Origin: Aquitalea aquatilis
Lineage (GTDB): Bacteria; Pseudomonadota; Gammaproteobacteria; Burkholderiales; Chromobacteriaceae
DNA length: 64,000 bases
Assembly: GCF_005155025.1 (NCBI RefSeq)
Contig: NZ_CP039731.1
Coordinates: 2,542,001-2,606,000 of the forward strand
Direction of reading: 5' to 3'
Shown here: positions 665-28,563 of the stretch, piece by piece
How the letters are laid out: each line of letters begins with the position of its first letter
How positions within the stretch are numbered: the stretch's first letter is position 1
The notes under the pieces: model-generated
What the model was told of the DNA's origin: nothing
Seen by the model: only the letters and a program-made list of their open reading frames with translations
The model's database searches: none
Program-made: the position numbers and the translations under genes

Positions 665-1549
665 CTACCAGTTGAACAGTTTGTCCAGCCAGCTTTCCAC
701 CTTGCTGGAGATTACCGACCAGCCTTCCCGCAGGATGCTGGTGGCTGTTTCTTTGATGGTTTCCCACAGCCCTTTGCTTGCAGTCTGATAAGCCTTTCCT
801 GACACGTATTCAGGTTTGGCCTCTCGGGCGATTGCCCACTTTTTTTGATTGGGCAGCAGGGTGACGATCTGCTCGACCAGGCCGGTGAGGCCATAGCCTT
901 CTTCGGCGGAAGTGACACAGATATGGTCGAGGGCGATGTCGAAGGTCTGGGATAGCTGGATCTGCTTGCGGCTCAGATTGCTTTGCTGGCTGCTGCTCGG
1001 TAGATGCCGTTCGTGGTCCCACTCCCAGAAAGGGGCAACTTTATCGACCTGGCTGATCACAAACAGCACCGGGATGTCCCGATCTGTCAGGTAAGGGCGG
1101 ATGACGCTGTTGAACACCTGCTGATCAATAGCCAGGGCCCGGTCATCGGCTTTGACTACCCACAAGATCAGATCCAGTTCCGGCAGCAGGCGCTGGTACA
1201 GGTCGGTGTATTCCTGATCCCGACCGATGCTTTCCCCGACCCCAGGAACGTCGATCAGGGCAATCCCTTTCCCATTTTTATACGCCAGGGTGTATTCCTG
1301 TGGGTAGCGGGTGCAGGCGGCAATGTCATCTACTTCGGCAATCTCCTGGCCGAACAGGGCATTGCACAAGCTGGACTTGCCACCCCCGGTTTTACCCATG
1401 ATGCCGACCACGGCCTGATAGTTGACCAGCTCTTCGATACGCGCTTGCAGTTCTTCACGCTGTGCCTGGGTAAAGGTCTGTCCATGCAGGTTGAGGGTAC
1501 TGCTGAGGTAGGAGAGCATCTGCTCGCCATGAAATGTCGGTAAGAACAT
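665..1549 (-). CDS. YfjP/YeeP-like GTPase
   Basis: This is a 294-residue P-loop GTPase of the Era/EngA-like group common on genomic islands (YfjP/YeeP type). The motifs are in order: G1 GKTGGGKSS at residues 52-60, G3 DVPG at 100-103 and G4 SQVDK at 166-170. The last ~50 residues form an amphipathic tail. ATG 1549 was chosen because GGAG sits six bases upstream; longer starts at 1561 and 1582 lack a ribosome site. In E. coli such proteins sit in CP4 prophage-like islands near toxin-antitoxin genes, and their substrate is unknown. Here the gene stands alone with its own terminator. Confidence 0.75.
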   Translation of the reverse strand: MFLPTFHGEQMLSYLSSTLNLHGQTFTQAQREELQARIEELVNYQAVVGIMGKTGGGKSSLCNALFGQEIAEVDDIAACTRYPQEYTLAYKNGKGIALIDVPGVGESIGRDQEYTDLYQRLLPELDLILWVVKADDRALAIDQQVFNSVIRPYLTDRDIPVLFVISQVDKVAPFWEWDHERHLPSSSQQSNLSRKQIQLSQTFDIALDHICVTSAEEGYGLTGLVEQIVTLLPNQKKWAIAREAKPEYVSGKAYQTASKGLWETIKETATSILREGWSVISSKVESWLDKLFNW

Positions 1550-1647
1550 AAGAGGCTCCATTCTGGAAACGACAACGCCCATCCCGTGGTAACGGAGATG
1601 GGCGCTGTGGTCGGTGTGCGGTGTGTTCAGAACATCGTGACGCAGGG

Positions 1648-3211: not shown

Positions 3212-4094
3212 CGGCACCCAGCTTGGACGTGAGCCGGGTAGGGCGAGACACTGCCTTCGGCTTCTCCTCTGATTCAGCACCACTTTCCACGGCCGGATAA
3301 AACTCCTCCAGCAGCTGCGGTACTTCCTCCTCGGTATCCTCGAACTGACCGTTCTGCAGCAACAGCCGGGCGGCTTGCTCCAGCTCGGCAGTGTCGATAC
3401 CAGCTTCCAGTTGTTCATCGGCTACCTTGCGCGCGGTACTGACGGCTTCGGCCAGGGTCTGGCCATCGCGTAGGGTCAGATCGACGTAGTACACGGGAGT
3501 ACGGTGCGACTGGGTGGTGCTCTTGGCGCGCAGACGCAGTAACAGCGGCAGATGCTTGGTGTTACCGCCACTGGCTGCTTCGTAATACTTCAAGCGTGCT
3601 GCTAGGGTACGGACCGAGTTGTAGCCGGTGGTGCGGAAGATGAAGCTGCCCAGTTCATCCTGCTGACCTTCTACCTGCACGTTGAGCCGGCCATATAGCT
3701 TGCAGCCCAACTCCTTGGCCAGCGGGCAACGATCCGGTCCTACGCAGCCCATCTCTTCCATGCCCTGACTGGTCACCCGCCGTGCTGTCTCTCCGTTACC
3801 GACACAGACCGGACGACCATTGTTTCGGTCGAAGGCACTGTATTCGGCACGCAGGTTGAGCTCGCTGTCGTTGAACAGCAGCTGGATCGGAATGGCGCGA
3901 ATCTTGCCATTCTGTGCCTGCTCCGACAGTGCCTGGTGCAAGGGATGTAGCAACCAGCCATCCCGGCTCTGTACCTGGGTGGTCAATGAAAAGCTGTCGT
4001 CCTTCTCCGGCAGCCACCGTTCTTGTTTCTGAACCAGTTTGCCAATGCTGATGCGTCCAATCACTGGCGGGGTAATGGCGAGACCTTTAATCAC
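3198..4094 (-). CDS. RDF-like / 'hydrolase or metal-binding' mobile-element protein
   Basis: This 298-residue protein belongs to the group found beside YqaJ nucleases and DUF932 proteins on plasmids and integrative elements, and related in name to phage recombination directionality factors. A Cys cluster (GCVGPDRCPLAKELGC at about residues 136-151) suggests metal binding. The acidic tail runs from about residue 245 to 275. The ATG overlaps the stop of the YqaJ gene by four bases, which shows translational coupling. Its exact activity is unknown, and the family label comes from neighbourhood and motif. Confidence 0.65.
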   Translation of the reverse strand: MIKGLAITPPVIGRISIGKLVQKQERWLPEKDDSFSLTTQVQSRDGWLLHPLHQALSEQAQNGKIRAIPIQLLFNDSELNLRAEYSAFDRNNGRPVCVGNGETARRVTSQGMEEMGCVGPDRCPLAKELGCKLYGRLNVQVEGQQDELGSFIFRTTGYNSVRTLAARLKYYEAASGGNTKHLPLLLRLRAKSTTQSHRTPVYYVDLTLRDGQTLAEAVSTARKVADEQLEAGIDTAELEQAARLLLQNGQFEDTEEEVPQLLEEFYPAVESGAESEEKPKAVSRPTRLTSKLGAVRTA

Positions 4095-19465: not shown

Positions 19466-19768
19466 TGAATCGCCCCGGCTTCTCTAGACACTCTTGAACC
19501 GTTGGAAATATTGCTTCTCAAACTCTACCGGCGATAGCCCGTTTGCGGAACCATGCCAGCGCTTCGGGTTGTAGAACATCTCGATGTAATCGAAAATGTC
19601 CCGCCGGGCCTCTTCCCTGGCGACTTCGGCCACTGGGTAACCACGCTCGGTTACCTGTTGGACTGCTTCAATCTTGAACTCTTCGGGGAAACGCGGCTTG
19701 CTCATGACACCTCCTTGTGGGGCCTAGTGTGAGGCTCGCGAGGTGTCTAGGAAAGGAGGGGCGATTCA
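19466..19768 (-). mobile_element. 303-bp internally deleted IS3-family element
   Basis: The ends are inverted repeats: the left begins TGAATCGCCCCGGC and the right reads back TGAATCGCCCCTCC. A three-base direct repeat GTT flanks the element (19463-19465 and 19769-19771), the usual IS3-family duplication. Inside, only the start of OrfA and the end of OrfB remain. The element is non-autonomous but could be mobilised in trans. Confidence 0.85.
19484..19705 (-). pseudogene. OrfA-OrfB deletion fusion of an IS3 transposase
   Basis: The 73-residue frame joins MSKPRFPEEFKIEAVQQ, the beginning of an OrfA helix-turn-helix protein, directly to REEARRDIFDYIEMFYNPKR through FEKQYF, the end of an OrfB integrase. 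All catalytic DDE residues are missing. It marks the deletion that produced the miniature element. Confidence 0.85.
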
Positions 19769-20263
19769 GTTCAACTTAGCTATCGACAGCAAACTTCGTG
19801 GATGTGATCTCGTTAACTTACGCGAACGTGACGTAACACATGGAAACCAGACTCTGCCCCGTGCGATTGTTATTCAGCGCAAGACTCAACGGCCTGTGCA
19901 ATTTGAACTGACGGAGCCGACAAGGCTGGCGGTGTCTGCATGGCTAGAGAAAGCGCACTTGCGAAGCGATCAGTATCTGTTTCCTAGTCGGCTGGCAGAC
20001 TCTCCACACCTGTCGACTCGTCAATACGCACGGATTGTGCATATGTGGGTCTCGACAGCAGGTCTGGACTCATCCATCTATGGCACACACTCATTACGTC
20101 GGACCAAGGCAACATTGATCTACAAAAAGACCAAAAATCTGTGTGCTGTACAAATCTTACTTGGCCACACCAAGCTGGAGTGCACGGTTCGGTACCTTGG
20201 CATCGAGGTCGATGATGCACTGGAAATTTCAGAGCAGATTGAAATCTAGGTAGCCACAAGGAA

Positions 20264-20443: not shown

Positions 20444-23131
20444 CTAGCCGTACGCTTCTTGCAAGGCGCGTTTCATTTCCTGATCCAATTGCTTTATATC
20501 AATTGGTTTGGAAGCAAATCCGCTCATGCCAACTGCCATTGCGGCTGCCCGGTCTTCCTGTAAGACACTTGCAGTCAGTGCGATTATCGGAATACCATAT
20601 TTGTCTGGATCTCCACCACTGGAGCGAATAACTCTGCAAGTCTCCAGTCCATCCATGATTGGCATCTGCACATCCATCAGAATAATGTCAAAATCATGTT
20701 GCGACCAAAGCTGCAGTACTTCCTTCCCGTTCATTGCCGTAGTTACTGTGTGGCCTCGCTTCTTGAGCAGGATCTTGATCAAGTTAAGGTTTTGTACCAC
20801 GTCATCCGCTACCAGAATATCCAATGGCGGTAGATTGGCATCTTCGACAACCGGTTTAACTATCTGGCCTGACTGGGCAGCTACCAGCGGAATCCGTACG
20901 GTAAATGTCGAGCCCTTACCCGCAGTGCTTTCGACACCGATACTTCCTCCCATCTTTTTTACCAATTCCAAGGCAATGGTTGTTCCTAGACCGGTGCCAC
21001 CAAAACGCCGTGAAGTTGATGCATCGGCCTGCGAAAATGGCTTGAACAACTTTGCCTGTGCGACTGCATTCATCCCGATACCGGTATCTACAACGATCAG
21101 CTCGACAATGCCCGTATGTTGGGAAACCTTTAGCCGCACTTCGCCCTTTTCAGTAAATTTTACGGCATTGCTCATTAAATTCAGCAATATCTGCCGAATA
21201 CGCATAGCATCACCCATGAAGTGATCGTTGATGCTCTCCGGGTATTCAATAATCAGGCTAATACCTTTGCGCTCGGTTGTCAGCTTTAACGTATCAATAG
21301 TCTGTTGGCAGACATTTCGCAGTGAAAAGGGAAGTTCCTCCAGCTCCACAGCACCTTGTTCCAGTTTTGCCGTATCCAGAATATCGTTGATCAATCCCAG
21401 CAAGCCTTTGGCAGACTGATTGATGATTTCAATCATCTTCTTCGGTTCAGCATCTATCTCGAAATCCTGCAGAAGATCGGTGTAGCCGATAATTGCATTC
21501 ATTGGAGTACGGATTTCATGACTCATATTGGCAAGAAAAGCGCTTTTTGATCTGGCGGCAGATTCCGCACTTTCCTTAGCCACTTGCATGGCAAGCTCCA
21601 TGAGCTTGCGTTCTGAAACATCAAGAATAAGCCCATCAATGAAAACGGCTTGATTCACTTCATTGAAAACACCACGGGCACTTTCAGATACCCAGCATTC
21701 GGTTCCATCCATGCAGCGTATGCGGTATTCCACCGTATAAGGAATACATTTATTCAGTGCATTATGAATAACATCACGTACTCGCTGCTGGTCTTCCGGA
21801 TGGATGATATTGAAGATGTGCATGCCTCCGCTCATGAAGATATTACTTGGCCAGCCACTAAGTTCCTGAATGTCTTCACTGATAAACAACTTATTCCACG
21901 GCTCTTTGGCCTCGCTGCGAAATGTCACTCCAGGAATATTGTCAATCAGTGCATGGAACTGTTGCTCTTGCTCTTCCAGTTCACGCTGCATTCGGTGGCG
22001 TTCGCTGATATCGGTGATGAATCCGACATACAGGCTGTACGCAGGAAGCGCGCCCTTGCCAATAGCCAGGCGAATAGGGAATTGTGTGCCATCCTTGCGA
22101 CGACCCACAGCCTCTTCCTCAATTTCGGAAATCGGCAGCGAAGCAGGAGAAGTCATCTGCCGACCCTGTTGGTACCGCGCGGGGATTAGCTGTTGGATGT
22201 TGCAGCCCTTGACATCAGACTCCATCCAGCCGAACAAGCGTTCTGCCGCCGGATTTAACGACTCTATCCTACCCTCGGCATCAAAGGTGATCATGCCATC
22301 AATGGTCGTGCTGACGATGGTCTGCAGTTTCAGCTCGTTTGCCTGCGTCTTCTGGTAGAGCATGCGGTAGCGAAGCAGCACATTACCTGCCAGAACCATA
22401 TTTCCCAGCATGAGCACCAGTACGGCAATTCCGATAGCAAGGCTGGCATTGTCATTCCAAGACGAAAATCCTCCGGCCTGAGGCGTGCCAATAAAGCGGG
22501 CCGCTGCCATGCCAAAGTAGTGCATACCAGCAATGGCAACGCCCATTACGCCCCCTCCCAGCAAGGTTGCGTAGCCCTTGCGCAGGCGATTGCTATCTAG
22601 GCCAAACCTTATCCATAACGCCAAGGTACTTAGTAACACGGCGACCATGATTGAGGCGGCAAACCATAGCGGGTCATAACGGAGCTGGGGCGCCATGTTC
22701 ATGGCAGCCATCCCGCTGTAGTGCATGATGCCGATGCCACTGCCAACCAGCGTGCCGCTTAGCCACAACTGGCTCTGGCTGATGCTTGGCTGGGCAAGTC
22801 TTCGCAGGGCAAACCAGGCTGCGCCAATAGCAGGAAGCATGGAGAACAACGTGGGAAGCAACGCGTAATGCACCGAACTACAGATTGAGAATGCAAGCAT
22901 GCCAACAAAATGCATGGCCCAGATGCCGCCTCCCATTGCAATCGATCCTGTCACCAGAGCAATTTTTTTGAGATTGCCTTCAGTCGCCTCTCGCGCGAAA
23001 CCGGCCATTTGCAAAGCAAGGCAAGAAGTGGAAATAGCGACAAGAAGAGAGAGGGAGACCAGCCAAAGATTGTATTGGGTTTGTAAAAAAAGCAGCGTTT
23101 GATAACTGCTGATGAAGTAGGAGTTCAGCAT
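20444..23131 (-). CDS. MHYT-domain hybrid sensor histidine kinase
   Basis: This 895-residue kinase starts with an MHYT membrane sensor (about residues 15-245), with the repeated motif seen as MHFVGM, MHYSGM and MHYFGM. This domain is proposed to bind copper and sense O2, CO or NO. Two PAS domains follow at about 275-395 and 400-510, then HisKA (NMSHEIRTPMNAIIGY), HATPase_c (NAVKFT, GTGLG) and a C-terminal receiver with the acceptor Asp in LMDVQMPIMDG. No response regulator is adjacent. A gas- or copper-sensing role would fit the nos locus, but this is inference. Confidence 0.88.
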   Translation of the reverse strand: MLNSYFISSYQTLLFLQTQYNLWLVSLSLLVAISTSCLALQMAGFAREATEGNLKKIALVTGSIAMGGGIWAMHFVGMLAFSICSSVHYALLPTLFSMLPAIGAAWFALRRLAQPSISQSQLWLSGTLVGSGIGIMHYSGMAAMNMAPQLRYDPLWFAASIMVAVLLSTLALWIRFGLDSNRLRKGYATLLGGGVMGVAIAGMHYFGMAAARFIGTPQAGGFSSWNDNASLAIGIAVLVLMLGNMVLAGNVLLRYRMLYQKTQANELKLQTIVSTTIDGMITFDAEGRIESLNPAAERLFGWMESDVKGCNIQQLIPARYQQGRQMTSPASLPISEIEEEAVGRRKDGTQFPIRLAIGKGALPAYSLYVGFITDISERHRMQRELEEQEQQFHALIDNIPGVTFRSEAKEPWNKLFISEDIQELSGWPSNIFMSGGMHIFNIIHPEDQQRVRDVIHNALNKCIPYTVEYRIRCMDGTECWVSESARGVFNEVNQAVFIDGLILDVSERKLMELAMQVAKESAESAARSKSAFLANMSHEIRTPMNAIIGYTDLLQDFEIDAEPKKMIEIINQSAKGLLGLINDILDTAKLEQGAVELEELPFSLRNVCQQTIDTLKLTTERKGISLIIEYPESINDHFMGDAMRIRQILLNLMSNAVKFTEKGEVRLKVSQHTGIVELIVVDTGIGMNAVAQAKLFKPFSQADASTSRRFGGTGLGTTIALELVKKMGGSIGVESTAGKGSTFTVRIPLVAAQSGQIVKPVVEDANLPPLDILVADDVVQNLNLIKILLKKRGHTVTTAMNGKEVLQLWSQHDFDIILMDVQMPIMDGLETCRVIRSSGGDPDKYGIPIIALTASVLQEDRAAAMAVGMSGFASKPIDIKQLDQEMKRALQEAYG

Positions 23132-23299
23132 GCTCAGCTCTCAGGCAGATCGCGCATATAGAAGGTCAATCATGATGCTTTTAACCGGTATAGCTCACAG
23201 AAAGCTTGCATTGCAATGTCATGTAACTAGTTACTTGCAATTCAGTATTTCAGCCCGTTTATGGGGCTGTGTTGCAGCACGAAAATTTACAAAAATCAT

Positions 23300-23329
23300 T
23301 TGGCATAACAGTAGGAGCTGCATTATAGT
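23300..23329 (+). promoter_or_regulatory. Sigma70-like promoter of the candidate small RNA
   Basis: TTGGCA (23300-23305) and TATAGT (23324-23329) are 18 bases apart, a good -35/-10 pair. Transcription would start near 23335-23337. Confidence 0.6.
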
Positions 23330-23335
23330 TCTAAT

Positions 23336-23403
23336 GCTGACTTCATCAGCACCAGCCCGAGATTAACTTCTCGTTTATACCGCCCTCGTGGCGGTTTTCT
23401 TTT
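23336..23403 (+). ncRNA. Candidate small RNA of about 70 nt
   Basis: Three hairpins follow the promoter without an open frame. They are TGCTGA/TCAGCA (23335-23351), CGAGA/TCTCG (23358-23373) and ACCGCC/GGCGGT (23379-23395), the last followed by TTTCTTTT. The final hairpin is a rho-independent terminator pointing rightward, and no plus-strand gene lies upstream to need it. The U-rich tail is typical of Hfq-bound RNAs. Targets are unknown. It sits between the MHYT kinase gene and the end of the iron operon. Confidence 0.55.
23379..23403 (+). terminator. Rho-independent terminator of the candidate small RNA
   Basis: A 6-bp GC-rich stem (23379-23384 with 23390-23395, CTCGT loop) is followed by TTTCTTTT. 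Confidence 0.75.
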
Positions 23404-23598
23404 GCTGCCTTCAGAACTGGCTTTTATGCAAAAGACATTTTATTGCCATGATTAATTACCAAGCAGCAGCTTGTCGTAGTTTCTTTCGTATTGGAATTTA
23501 TAAATTCATGCTTCCGAATGGGTAGCATCCCGACATCACCGGCTCATTAGAAAACGTTCGTCCGCTGCTATTTCTCCACCAGTGGCCTCAAGTGTTTG

Positions 23599-24630
23599 CT
23601 AGGCAAAAACGGTTACTGAGCCGTCAACGGCAACCCCTACAGTCTGTCCGTTTTGATAGGCATGCCAGCCGTTGGTACGCGCCTTGATGGTATGCCGGCT
23701 GTGCAGCAATTCCAGGTGTAGGGTGGCATCGTGGCCAAAGTACTCCATACCAATGATTCTGGCCTGCGGCTGGCTGGGTGATGGCGGCCCCAGTCTTATC
23801 TGCTCGGGTCTGATCAACACATCTACTGCACCTTGCTGATGGACTTGTGACAAGGGAAGACTGCCCAGCTCGCACTCCACCGTTTGCGGGCCGGCAATGC
23901 CTGGAAGCAGGATGGATTCGCCTAGAAAACCTGCTAGTTCCGGTGTGCGCGGACGGCAATAGAGATTGGCCGGACTGTCCTGCTGCAGCAACTGGCCTTC
24001 CCACAAGACGGCCACTTGCTCACCACAGGACAAGGCCTCCGACTGGTCATGGGTAACCAGCACCGCCGTGGCACCCACGGCTTTCAATGTCTGCAGCACA
24101 GCCTGGCGGGTATCATTGCGCAGGCCGGTATCCAGTGCCGAGAACGGTTCGTCCAGCAATACCACCGCAGGTTCCGGTGCCAATGCACGTGCCAATGCCA
24201 CGCGCTGTTGCTGACCACCGGACAACTGCTGCGGCGCACGGGTGGCAAAGTGTGCAGGCAGGCCCACCATTTCCAACAACTCCGCCACCCGATGACACCG
24301 CTTACGCAGACTGCGTGGCAGGCCGAACACGATGTTGTCGGCCACACTCAGATGAGGAAATAGCGCACCTTCCTGCGGTACATAGCCGATGCGTCGCCGC
24401 TCTGGCGGCACGTGGATACTGGCGCTGCTGGCCAGCTTCCCGCCAATGCTGATGCTACCAGCGTCGAGGTGCTCGAAGCCGCACAGCATGCGCAGCAGCG
24501 TGGTTTTGCCGCTCCCTGATGGGCCCAGCAGGGCCAGCAGGGAGCCGGAAGGAATGTGCAGATCAAGCTGGTCGATGACCCGCTGTTGCCCGAATTGTTT
24601 GCACAGCCCCTGAAGCAAAAGTTCAGACAT
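23599..24630 (-). CDS. fbpC: Ferric iron ABC transporter ATP-binding protein
   Basis: This 343-residue ATPase of the FbpC/PotA class has Walker A GPSGSGKTT, signature LSGGQQQRVALARAL, Walker B VVLLDEP and a C-terminal TOBE-like domain from about residue 240. It powers import of ferric iron with the permease and binding protein upstream. ATG 24630 is used because AGGAGA lies eight bases upstream. The start overlaps the permease stop by eight bases. It is the last gene of a six-gene leftward operon. Confidence 0.88.
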   Translation of the reverse strand: MSELLLQGLCKQFGQQRVIDQLDLHIPSGSLLALLGPSGSGKTTLLRMLCGFEHLDAGSISIGGKLASSASIHVPPERRRIGYVPQEGALFPHLSVADNIVFGLPRSLRKRCHRVAELLEMVGLPAHFATRAPQQLSGGQQQRVALARALAPEPAVVLLDEPFSALDTGLRNDTRQAVLQTLKAVGATAVLVTHDQSEALSCGEQVAVLWEGQLLQQDSPANLYCRPRTPELAGFLGESILLPGIAGPQTVECELGSLPLSQVHQQGAVDVLIRPEQIRLGPPSPSQPQARIIGMEYFGHDATLHLELLHSRHTIKARTNGWHAYQNGQTVGVAVDGSVTVFA

Positions 24631-26236
24631 GAGAAGCGTCTCCTGTAGCGGTGTGGCCATCGGTGGCCAGACGGTCGATGGCATTCCTTCCCAGCAAGGC
24701 CATCAGCAGCCAGGTGGATGCCATGGATAGCAAGGTAAGCGCCAGTGCATAAGGCGCAGCGGCGGCATAGGCCATGGCCGAAGTGTCGGCCCAGATCTGG
24801 GTGGCCAGTGTTTCGGTGCCGATGGGTGACAGCAGCAAGGTGGCGGTCAGTTCGGTGACAATGGACAGGAATACCAGACTGGCAGCCGCACCCAAGCCGG
24901 GCGCGGCCATGGGCAGCAGCACACGCAGCCAGGTCTGCCAACTGCCTAGCCCCAGTGAGCGTGCCAGTTCCTCCTGTCGGCTTTCGGCCTGAAGCAGTGC
25001 CGAGCGCACGCTGACGATGGCCAGCGGCAGAAACAGGATGGCGTAGGCCAGCAGCAGCAGGAACTGGGTCTGATACAGCGACGGCACGACGCGGATGGAC
25101 ACGGTGACCAGCCCCAGTGCGATGACAATGCCGGGTACGCCCTGTACCAGGAAGGTCAGCCGTTCCATGAGGCCGGTCAGCCGGCCCGGCATGCGCGCCA
25201 GCAGATAGCCAAGCGGCAATGCCAGCAGCACAGTCAGGGCTGCACCTTCCAGACCCAGCTCAATCGAACTGGAACTGGCGTCAAGAATCAGCTCCGCCGA
25301 TACCTCGACCGGCGACACGGCGGCATCGCCATGCTGGGTCAACCAGTAAGCCAGCGTGGAGAGCGGCAGCAACAGCGTGATGCAGGACAGCAGCACAAAG
25401 CCGGCCACCACCAGCCATTTCCGCGCTCCCAGCTCCAGCCGTGGCGGTGCGCGGCGAGCGCCCTTGGCACGCCGCTCATAACTGGGCTGCCGCCTTACCC
25501 GCCATTCAAGGCCGATCAGCATGGCGGCTACCAGCAGCAGCACGATGGACAACTGGGCTGCACCATGGCTGTCAAAGCCGGCGCGGTATTCGGCAAAGAT
25601 TTCGGTGGTGAAGGTACGAAAGCGCAACAAGACAAAGGCACCGAACTCTGACAAGGTGCTTAGCGCCACCAGCAACATGCCGCCCAGCAAGGCTGGTCGC
25701 AGCTGCGGCAGGATCAGGCGGAAGAAACAGCGCCATGGCCCCAGCCCAAGGGTTCTGGCCGTTTCCTCCAGTGCCGGATCCAGACCGCGCAATGCGGCAG
25801 ATACCGGCAGGAAGACCAGTGGCGAATAGGCACTGCCCAGCACCAACAGCGCACCGGGAAAACCTTGCAGATCGTCGCTGAGCGAAACCCAGGCATAGCT
25901 GCTGATGAAGGTGGGAATAGCCATCGGTGCCACGCTCAACAGCGGCCACAGCCCCTGCCAGGGCAGACGGGTGCGTTCGGCAAACCAGGCACAGACCAGC
26001 CCCAGCACGCCACACAGCAGAGTGGTGGCGGACACGATGATTGCGGTGTTGAGCGCCAGCGAACCAACCAGCGGTCGCCACAGCATGTCGATGAAGTCTG
26101 CCGGGTCGGACTGCGCAGCCTGCCAGATGATGACCAGCAGCGGGGAAGCCAGAACGGCACATACCGCCAGGGCGGCAGCAAATAGCCAGCCCTGGCGGTG
26201 TGTGGTTCTCCCCGGCATCAGGGAGTGAATGGCCAT
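24623..26236 (-). CDS. fbpB: Ferric iron ABC transporter permease (fused two-domain type)
   Basis: This 537-residue inner membrane protein has about twelve hydrophobic helices in two homologous halves, as in FbpB/SfuB. Each half has a binding-protein-dependent transport loop (EETARTLGLGPWRCFFR and EELARSLGLGSWQTWLR). The loops contact the ATPase. ATG 26236 directly follows the binding-protein stop. A shorter start at Met7 is possible. Confidence 0.88.
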   Translation of the reverse strand: MAIHSLMPGRTTHRQGWLFAAALAVCAVLASPLLVIIWQAAQSDPADFIDMLWRPLVGSLALNTAIIVSATTLLCGVLGLVCAWFAERTRLPWQGLWPLLSVAPMAIPTFISSYAWVSLSDDLQGFPGALLVLGSAYSPLVFLPVSAALRGLDPALEETARTLGLGPWRCFFRLILPQLRPALLGGMLLVALSTLSEFGAFVLLRFRTFTTEIFAEYRAGFDSHGAAQLSIVLLLVAAMLIGLEWRVRRQPSYERRAKGARRAPPRLELGARKWLVVAGFVLLSCITLLLPLSTLAYWLTQHGDAAVSPVEVSAELILDASSSSIELGLEGAALTVLLALPLGYLLARMPGRLTGLMERLTFLVQGVPGIVIALGLVTVSIRVVPSLYQTQFLLLLAYAILFLPLAIVSVRSALLQAESRQEELARSLGLGSWQTWLRVLLPMAAPGLGAAASLVFLSIVTELTATLLLSPIGTETLATQIWADTSAMAYAAAAPYALALTLLSMASTWLLMALLGRNAIDRLATDGHTATGDASHV

Positions 26237-27247
26237 TTACAGCAAACCGGCCTTGCGCAGCATGGGCGCTGCCTGACTGTCATCCCCCAGCTTCTGCATA
26301 TCCAGTGCCGGCGGCGTCAACTGGTTGAAAGGCTTGAGCACCGGTGCCGGTGCGATGCCCGGCAATAGCGGGTACTCGAAGGTGATGTTGCTCTTGGCCA
26401 GCACCTGCTGGGCACGGGCGCTGGTCAGGTAGCTGACAAATTTCTGCGCCGCATCGGCATTGTGCGCGGTTTTCAGTACCCCGGCACCAGAGACGTTGAG
26501 CAAGGCACCAACGTCACCATTGCCGAAGTGATACAGCTGGCTGTGCATGCCCTTGTTGCCCAGCTCTACCTGCAGGCGTGCCAGGTAGTAATTGTTGATG
26601 ATGCCGACAGCCACGCTGCCACGATTGACAGCAGCGGCGACGCCTTCGTTGTCGTCGAACATCTGAGCGTTGTTGCGCAGCCCCTTCAGCCATTGCTGGG
26701 TCGCAGCCTCACCCTTCAGGGCGCGCACGGCGCTGACCAGTGGCAGGAAGTCGCCATCAGACGGTGCAATGGCCAGTTTGCCTTTCCATTGCGGGCCAGC
26801 CAGATCCAGCAAGGAGAACGGCATGGCAAGACCGGCAGCCAGCTTGTTGTTGACCACCAGCACGTTTTCACGTGCGGTCACGCCCACCCAGCTGCCGCTG
26901 GGCGAGTTGTACTTGGCCGGGATGGCGGCCAGCGTGGCGGCAGGCAGGCGGGTCAGCATCTGCTTGCCTTCCAGCGCCATCAACTCCGGCGAGTTCGAGG
27001 CAAAGTAGACGTCAGCCGGTGAGGCCTTGCCTTCGGCCATCAACTGGGCCACCAGCTCCGGGCCTTCGCCTTCGCGCACCTTGACGCTGATGCCGCTGGC
27101 TTGCTCAAAGTCCTTGACCAGCAGTTTGACGGTTTGCGGGTGTTGGGCGCTGTACAGGATCAGGCTAGCGGCATTGGCCGGGAGCGCCAGACCCAGGCTG
27201 ATCAGACTGGCGACGCCGAGCAGGCTCTGCTTGATAAATGATTTCAT
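26237..27247 (-). CDS. fbpA: Periplasmic ferric iron-binding protein
   Basis: This 336-residue protein has a Sec signal peptide (cleavage after ANA near residue 26). The mature part fits class II iron-binding proteins: LYSAQHPQTV, then DVYFASNSPELMALE, and the Tyr pair in GIINNYYLARL that binds iron in FbpA. It delivers Fe3+ to the membrane permease encoded next. The gap to efeB is 26 bases. Confidence 0.87.
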   Translation of the reverse strand: MKSFIKQSLLGVASLISLGLALPANAASLILYSAQHPQTVKLLVKDFEQASGISVKVREGEGPELVAQLMAEGKASPADVYFASNSPELMALEGKQMLTRLPAATLAAIPAKYNSPSGSWVGVTARENVLVVNNKLAAGLAMPFSLLDLAGPQWKGKLAIAPSDGDFLPLVSAVRALKGEAATQQWLKGLRNNAQMFDDNEGVAAAVNRGSVAVGIINNYYLARLQVELGNKGMHSQLYHFGNGDVGALLNVSGAGVLKTAHNADAAQKFVSYLTSARAQQVLAKSNITFEYPLLPGIAPAPVLKPFNQLTPPALDMQKLGDDSQAAPMLRKAGLL

Positions 27248-27273
27248 GGTGAACTGCCTTGTATTCGGTTGGT

Positions 27274-28563
27274 TTACAGTCCGGCGAACAACGGTTCGCC
27301 GATATAGCCCTTGCCATCGGTACCTGGCGGGCAGGCAAAGATGGCGCTGGCTACATGGGTGGTGTACTGGTTCATCATGTCGCGCGCGGCCACGGTCTTG
27401 TTGATCCGGATGAAGCCGCTGCGCGGATCGCGCTGGTAAGCGATGAAGAACAGGCCGGCATCGTATTCGATGCCCTGATGCCAGGGCGGCCAGCGCTCGG
27501 CGGTAAAGCTGGAGCCGTCATTGTAGGAATAGGCACGGCGCAGAATGCGCGAGCCGCCATTTTCCTGCGGCGAGGCCACACGCGAGTGGGCACTGTCCGG
27601 AATGATAGTGTTGCCATCCTTGTCGGTGGCATCCAGCTTCATGGCTTCAAACTCGTTTTTCTGGCCTAGCGGTGCACCGTTATCCTTGTAGCGACCGACC
27701 ACTTCCTGCTGGAAGCCCAGTTCGCTGCGGTCCCAGTGTTCCAGCGCAATGCGGATGCGACGCACCACCACATAGCTGCCGTTTTTCATCCAGCCGCCTT
27801 CGTCGCCAACCCAGACAAATTCCTTCATCAGGGCCGGATCCTTGGTTGACGGATTATTAGTGCCGTCCTTGAAACCCATCAGATTGCGCCCGGTACTGCC
27901 ATCAGCCGGTGCGCTGGCAAAGCCGGTTTGTGCCCAGCGCAGGCTGGCCACGCCCTGGGCCAGGGCGGCCAGTTGGCGTACGGCATGGAAGGCAACTTGC
28001 GGGTCGTCGGCGCAAGCCTGGATGGACAGGTCACCACCGCTGCGCTCCGGCACCAGCTGGTCGCCATTGAATTTCGGCAGATCGACAAAGGCTGCCGGGC
28101 GACGGCTGGCCAGACCGTAACGATCCACCCCGTTCTTGCTGAACAGGCCGGGGCCAAAGCCAAAGGTCAGCGTCAGTTTGCCGGTGGACAGGCCGATGCT
28201 GTCGCCGCCGTCTTCCGGAGCGGCGTCAATCTTGCCGCTCAGCGGCAGTGCCGTCTGGCCCCGGCTGAGCCGGCGTGCCGCAGCGGTCCAGCGCTTGAGC
28301 AGGGCAATGACATCGGCGCGCTGTTCGGTATCCAGGTCAAAGGCTGCAAAGTAGCTGTGTTTTTGCTGTGGCGTGATGATGCCGGCCTGATGCGCGCCAT
28401 CAAACGGAATCAGATCCTGTGGCATCGGCGTGGCAGCCAGTGCGCGCGGGCTGCTCAGCATGCCCAGGCCGCCCCCCAGCAGCGCCCCGGCCACAGCGGC
28501 CTGAGTGCCGCCAAGCAAAAAGCGCCGGCGGGCGGGGTTGATCGGGGTGTCGTGCTTACTCAT
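27274..28563 (-). CDS. efeB: EfeB-type DyP heme peroxidase, Tat-exported
   Basis: This 429-residue protein has a Tat signal (RRRFLLGG at residues 12-19). It carries the dye-decolorising peroxidase core: distal Asp in GFKDGT (230-235), proximal His in DSAH (H326) and Arg in SRILRR. In EfeUOB systems EfeB oxidises iron or acts on heme in the periplasm. Here no efeU or efeO is present, and the gene sits instead with an FbpABC transporter. The start overlaps the stop of the beta-propeller gene by four bases. Confidence 0.87.
   Translation of the reverse strand: MSKHDTPINPARRRFLLGGTQAAVAGALLGGGLGMLSSPRALAATPMPQDLIPFDGAHQAGIITPQQKHSYFAAFDLDTEQRADVIALLKRWTAAARRLSRGQTALPLSGKIDAAPEDGGDSIGLSTGKLTLTFGFGPGLFSKNGVDRYGLASRRPAAFVDLPKFNGDQLVPERSGGDLSIQACADDPQVAFHAVRQLAALAQGVASLRWAQTGFASAPADGSTGRNLMGFKDGTNNPSTKDPALMKEFVWVGDEGGWMKNGSYVVVRRIRIALEHWDRSELGFQQEVVGRYKDNGAPLGQKNEFEAMKLDATDKDGNTIIPDSAHSRVASPQENGGSRILRRAYSYNDGSSFTAERWPPWHQGIEYDAGLFFIAYQRDPRSGFIRINKTVAARDMMNQYTTHVASAIFACPPGTDGKGYIGEPLFAGL

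Follow-up and report, generated by a model that had tools for sequence, protein, structure and literature searches.

A probable small-RNA gene of Mu-like phage origin between the MHYT kinase gene and the iron operon of Aquitalea aquatilis

The window, i.e., the whole stretch of 64,000 nucleotides of the Aquitalea aquatilis chromosome that was analysed, contains, in the gap between the gene of an MHYT-PAS-histidine-kinase hybrid and a cluster of ABC transporter and Dyp-peroxidase genes (the iron operon), a compact unit composed of a promoter, three hairpins and a U-rich tail, the parts of which are collected in Table 1. At 23300-23403, the sequence is as the first-pass annotation had described it, the 18-base promoter spacing included, and its remark that no plus-strand gene lies upstream is right in substance, the kinase and the ABC-transporter genes both being on the minus strand. 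A plus-strand ORF of 78 aa (23130-23366), a mechanical call without counterpart in the relatives, overlaps the RNA gene. Near the kinase gene, at 19484-20249, a fragment of an IS3-type transposase and a truncated phage integrase (PF00589) are found, and these remnants, with the phage scar at 23222-23600 considered below, mark the segment as rearranged.

Table 1. Positions of the small-RNA gene, its parts, its neighbours and the related units (positions in the window unless a contig is named)
Feature	Position	Strand	Basis or remark
MHYT-PAS-histidine-kinase hybrid gene	20444-23131	-	left neighbour
Mu-like-phage-derived relic	23220-23476	+	homologous to L106 3587-3841; 75-78% over 229-264 bp, E down to 9e-45
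A-rich element upstream of the promoter, possible UP element	23255-23299	+	common to the phage (GTTGCnGnACGAAAATTnAC..AAAAATC) in the alignment; function presumed
Sigma-70 promoter TTGGCA-18-TATAGT (-35, 23300-23305; -10, 23324-23329; spacer 18 nt)	23300-23329	+	hexamers at all three loci
sRNA A gene, about 68 nt	23336-23403	+	start predicted from the -10 box; fold and body-versus-flank identity
Hairpin 1, UGCUGA-CUUCA-UCAGCA	23335-23351	+	fold
Single-stranded linker, proposed seed	23352-23357	+	inside invariant CAGCACCAGCC, 23347-23357
Hairpin 2, CGAGA-UUAACU-UCUCG	23358-23373	+	fold
U/A-rich single strand UUUAU before the terminator, possible Hfq site	23374-23378	+	unpaired in the fold; Hfq role presumed
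Intrinsic terminator ACCGCC-CUCGU-GGCGGU + UUUUCUUUU (third hairpin, 23379-23395, then the tail TTTTCTTTT)	23379-23403	+	conserved at three loci
Putative unit B, decayed remains: degenerate -10 CATGAT, hairpin CAAGC-agca-GCUUG kept, terminator lost	23425-23530	+	aligned to unit B of the phage and of copy 2
ABC-transporter gene	23599-24684	-	right neighbour
ABC transporter/Dyp-peroxidase cluster (iron operon)	23599-28563	-
Putative unit B in the phage	L106 3816-3907	+	promoter-like box, hairpin and terminator kept
Putative unit B in copy 2	L061 2056-1952	-	promoter-like box, hairpin and terminator kept
Unit B-like, without sRNA A	L213 about 1420-1560	-	degenerate Mu-like prophage, genome G006

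The gene, named here sRNA A, would be transcribed from 23336, as predicted from the position of the -10 box. The RNA of the window folds at -22.3 kcal/mol versus -11.2 +/- 2.4 for its shuffles (z -4.64; 0 of 200 shuffles as good), and the same three hairpins are formed by each of the three members of the family, with z of -4.64, -4.36 and -3.62. Taken alone, the promoter match of 10/12 is at the chance level (1 found versus 1.7 expected from shuffles), and so is the terminator match (3 found versus 2.8 expected). The promoter, the three hairpins and the terminator recur together at two other loci, one on a phage and one elsewhere in the chromosome (copy 2), the promoter spacer being 18 in the window, and the phage copy and copy 2 both having a spacer of 16 and an extended -10 (TGC). 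What had been proposed at the outset, a small RNA having a promoter of its own, three hairpins and a terminator, is supported, exactly those parts being kept at the three loci; the own promoter and the intrinsic terminator are present, and a conserved open frame is absent across the members. The only short ATG frame reads MLT/NSSAPARD where it is kept, but the small peptide MLTSSAPARD was rejected, since the ATG lies merely 5 nt past the -10 box and the frame is lost in copy 2. A sigma-54 promoter was rejected for its wrong spacing, as read from the sequence. No tRNA was found, and the window, when scanned for Rfam, gave 0 matches at the gathering score, the best sub-threshold match, Hrs1, being on the wrong strand with E 2.4, so that the membership in a known RNA family was rejected. 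The stretch 23300-23403 can be called a real small-RNA gene, though not of the kind first proposed.

The DNA search revealed one more locus in the chromosome, copy 2, on the minus strand (G000:C1:3795107-3795208; 74% over 104 nt, E 3.5e-8), and every part of the unit, from the -35 and -10 boxes through the hairpins and linker to the terminator, is present there. The covariance model built from the window copy and copy 2 matched, in IMG/VR, the phage copy at 3662-3765 of the metagenomic contig IMGVR_UViG_3300019093_000227 (hereafter L106) with 97.6 bits and E 1.1e-23, and further viral pattern searches returned L106 again as the sole true member. With the covariance model, the 60 other genomes of the family gave no true member, and neither did the genomes sampled from the order (399) and from the class (369). 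Searches by pattern, by DNA and by covariance model, which covered 61 genomes of the family along with the order and class samples, yielded merely shared CCGCCCUCGUGGCGG terminators or coding matches; the best outsider, from genome G570 (33.8 bits), was rejected as a member because its linker is absent. When 84,980 species genomes were scanned for the pattern, 17 matches came up, but none of them fits the covariance model, and nothing longer than terminator-length matches was met in the plasmids and annotated phages searched. The sRNA A family is absent from Rfam and from all other sampled genomes. Conservation of the stems among relatives, which the first-pass annotation had put forward as a check, thus held on the phage contig and did not hold in the 60 other chromosomes of the family, and the presence on a phage explains the patchy distribution.

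The contig L106 belongs to a Mu-like phage, because it carries the genes of the portal, an F-like head protein, the neck/virion-morphogenesis protein (G), the head-maturation protease (I), the major head protein and a Com-like translational regulator. The RNA gene occupies the gap that separates the neck gene (G) from the protease gene (I); it is read from the strand opposite to the late genes and overlaps no gene. In the sister Mu-like phages, whose flanks are 88-94% identical, the G-I junction comprises only about 160 bp and the RNA is absent, and therefore the RNA is an insertion there; other phages of the group carry different inserts at the junction, which, by such comparisons, behaves as a moron site. 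The close phage relatives keep the palindrome GAATTAACACGCGTTAACGGGGGT adjoining the RNA site, which is probably, judged by its position, the activator site of the gene I late promoter. Congeneric genomes harbour Mu-like prophages with the G protein 96-98% identical, and the search of the own genome for an intact phage of this kind found none at E <= 1e-10.

Two other kinds of content were observed at the G-I junction. In L244, a Mu-like prophage of genome G009, two consecutive terminator-like hairpins lie on the strand opposite to gene G, GGCCGCTCC..GGGGCGGCC-TTTTT and then GCCGCC..GGCGGC-TTTTTTTT, which suggests that unrelated small transcripts also arise at this site in other Mu-like phages. 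Two CxxC-rich proteins of about 70 aa (L106 3219-3428, minus strand; L213 1850-2062, plus strand), with 33% identity over 49 aa, are encoded between the palindrome and the protease gene and look Com-like, with no Pfam match for either and no PHROG for that of L106.

The first-pass annotation had also suggested looking for copies upstream of related MHYT kinase genes, and this check failed: in the congeneric genome G001, which has an 88%-identical orthologue of the kinase, the homology ends at 23222 of the window, before the RNA, and the left edge of the phage relic (23220) coincides with this synteny break. On the right side, the sequence again resembles the relatives only from about 23603, where the ABC gene ends, and from the two breaks the segment 23222-23600 is considered to be foreign, its left part being phage. 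Copy 2 matches L106 over 416 bp, extending into the 3' end of gene G, which alone matches there over 113 nt (72%, E 7e-12). By this phage homology, both chromosomal copies are best read as Mu-like prophage remnants. A second, putative small RNA unit, unit B, occurs downstream of sRNA A or alone, with the layout of a TATGGT/TATAGT box, a hairpin and the terminator CACCCARTCC...GG..TGGGTG followed by T's, so that in the phage two terminators stand in a row on the RNA strand. A duplex of A and B was rejected, the interaction being no better than with the shuffled B (P 0.5).

The body of the RNA is identical between the window and the phage at 63/68 positions (92.6%), while the identity is 71% in the 80 bp before the promoter and 69% in the 73 bp after it, and the difference between the body and the flanks gave P 1.3e-4 in Fisher's exact test. 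All five body substitutions fall in the hairpin loops, which make up 16/68 nt (P 4e-4). In copy 2, compensatory changes are seen in hairpin 1 (A-U to C-G) and hairpin 2 (C-G to U-A, in an alignment adjusted by hand, since MAFFT misplaces the 3' arm), the other stem changes being A-U to G-U in the terminator and, in hairpin 1, an outermost U-A pair that is lost. The members being three, the covariation of the stems rests on the two double changes. The segment CAGCACCAGCC is identical at all three loci while the loops vary, and the UUUAU stretch is identical in the phage copy and shortened in copy 2. Such a pattern is that of an RNA which is structured and keeps one single-stranded segment fixed, and the loop-only substitutions with the two compensatory stem changes argue that the structure is maintained by selection. 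The stems, linker and terminator preserved amid decayed DNA suggest a working regulatory RNA, now or until recently. However, the preservation could predate a recent loss of the prophage and have acted on the phage, so that a function in the host today is a possibility only, and, as judged from three members, the constraint may have acted in the host, in the phage or in both. There is a reading, unlikely but serious, in which sRNA A did its work in the phage and what remains in the window is a dead fossil preserved merely through the recent prophage loss. The decay of the adjoining unit B, the diverged flanks and the lack of conservation in other chromosomes would agree with it; against it, the flanks have diverged from the phage by 30% versus 7% for the RNA body, with loop-only changes, although the constraints of the host and of the phage line are inseparable in this comparison.

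The iron-responsive RNA suggested by the first-pass annotation from a Fur-like word was abandoned: the best match is 10/19 with a chance probability of 0.74, 41% of 115-bp tiles taken arbitrarily from the window do as well, and the word is not kept in the phage copy or in copy 2. The Fur-controlled NrrF of Neisseria (PMC5586341) was a candidate under the iron idea; unlike it, sRNA A has no Fur box above chance, and a Fur-regulated sRNA of the NrrF/RyhB type was rejected on this non-conserved word and on the missing Rfam match. Nor was the tie to the iron operon sustained, the linker pairing with the starts of the MHYT kinase and iron-operon genes, as with the neighbouring genes taken as targets, being no better than with shuffles.

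The explanation preferred as a whole, with a probability of roughly two in three, is that of a phage-derived sRNA left in the host and acting by Hfq-type base pairing with the linker as seed. The origin is its firmest part, 23336-23403 being very probably a phage-derived sRNA gene, and the opinion is evenly divided on whether sRNA A is a trans-acting base-pairing regulator that uses the linker. The Mu-like phage carries sRNA A and unit B between G and I, opposite to the late genes, and, owing to the own sigma-70 promoter and terminator, the RNA could be made in the lysogen without late transcription and without phage activators. The rest of the prophage would have gone from the host, with two relics left, that of the window having A intact and B decayed, and the second, more diverged, having A, B and a gene G fragment. 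By analogy, sRNA A may act in trans and use Hfq, which would bind the U-rich stretch and the terminator; the U-rich stretch and the U tail are the Hfq-type traits visible in the sequence. The seed would be the 7 nt ACCAGCC, conserved and single-stranded, that join hairpins 1 and 2; they would pair with GGCUGGU-type sites of the targeted mRNAs or other RNAs. The sole long antisense match found is that to quinone oxidoreductase genes (L003, L006 and L008, congeneric), in which a 24-nt coding stretch matches the complement of sRNA A in up to 23/24 positions, probably by chance; antisense control of this gene was rejected, because the complementarity is 18/24 in this genome versus 23/24 in one relative and shared codons explain it. 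A bolder extension, offered as a tentative one, is that the two-RNA cassette (A and B) is a moron of the Mu-like clade and that the host domesticated A from the two remnants as sibling sRNAs outliving the phage.

To our knowledge, phage-borne sRNAs are known chiefly from lambdoid prophages of enterobacteria. Among the prophage-encoded sRNAs of E. coli and Salmonella, the Pas group (PMC13192938), DicF (PMC5069750) and AgvB/AsxR (PMC4104026) show that phage RNAs act on host genes. sRNA A is like them in being short and phage-borne, with a Rho-independent terminator, several variants per genome and a patchy distribution, and in the phage origin followed by divergence after integration; unlike them, it resides at the G-I late junction of a Mu-like phage of Chromobacteriaceae-type bacteria, one of its copies stands alone without phage genes, and it has no sequence or Rfam relationship to those sRNAs. 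The Neisseria siblings NmsRA/NmsRB (NgncR_162/163) share 74-78% identity and three stem-loops, and their single-stranded region between hairpins 1 and 2 has been shown to pair with targets (PMC5362039, PMC9973317). sRNA A also has three stem-loops and sibling copies, and a pairing use of the same linker position is plausible. However, the NmsR genes are in tandem, of the core genome, between dsbB and lrp, and have UC-rich anti-Shine-Dalgarno seeds (PMC5362039, PMC9973317), in contrast to the unlinked copies, the phage origin and the linker ACCAGCC, which is not UC-rich, of sRNA A. The membership in NmsR/NgncR_162-163 fails on the seed, the linker ACCAGCC and the SL2 loop UUAACU differing from the UC-rich anti-SD motifs described (PMC5362039).

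An action of the RNA on the phage itself, where, with unit B, it would act in the lysogen by silencing or buffering the late mRNA or the leaky transcription of the late genes, leaving the chromosomal copies as fossils, is improbable: the antisense orientation within the late gene cluster, the adjoining conserved palindrome, probably part of the gene I late promoter, and the two successive terminators on the RNA strand fit such a role, but no gene is overlapped by the RNA, the sister phages manage without it, and the linker and stems are kept in a relic whose unit B and flanks decayed. We consider distinctly improbable an anti-sRNA sponge, the linker of which would mimic a host mRNA target and titrate a host core sRNA, like AgvB/AsxR in E. 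coli; its origin type and size match the phage-encoded anti-sRNAs (PMC4104026) and no mRNA target was found, yet host sRNAs that carry the complement GGCUGGUGC are not known, and a non-exhaustive search here detected none. That there is no RNA gene, the hairpins being fortuitous or a piece of the terminator of an adjacent transcript, as the single motif scans at the chance level and the identical terminators common in the bacterial family might suggest, is very hard to reconcile with the joint recurrence of the promoter, three hairpins, linker and terminator at three unlinked loci and with the absence of a plus-strand gene upstream.

If the reading of sRNA A as a phage-derived regulator left in the host is true, it would add a new family of sRNAs, borne by a Mu-like phage and inserted at a defined site, and an example of an RNA gene that survived the loss of its prophage in two relics that are unlinked. 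The local annotation is corrected as well, since what separates the MHYT kinase gene from the iron operon is a phage scar and not an iron-regulatory locus. A short testable seed is at hand, as are phages that carry the RNA and others that lack it, ready to be compared.
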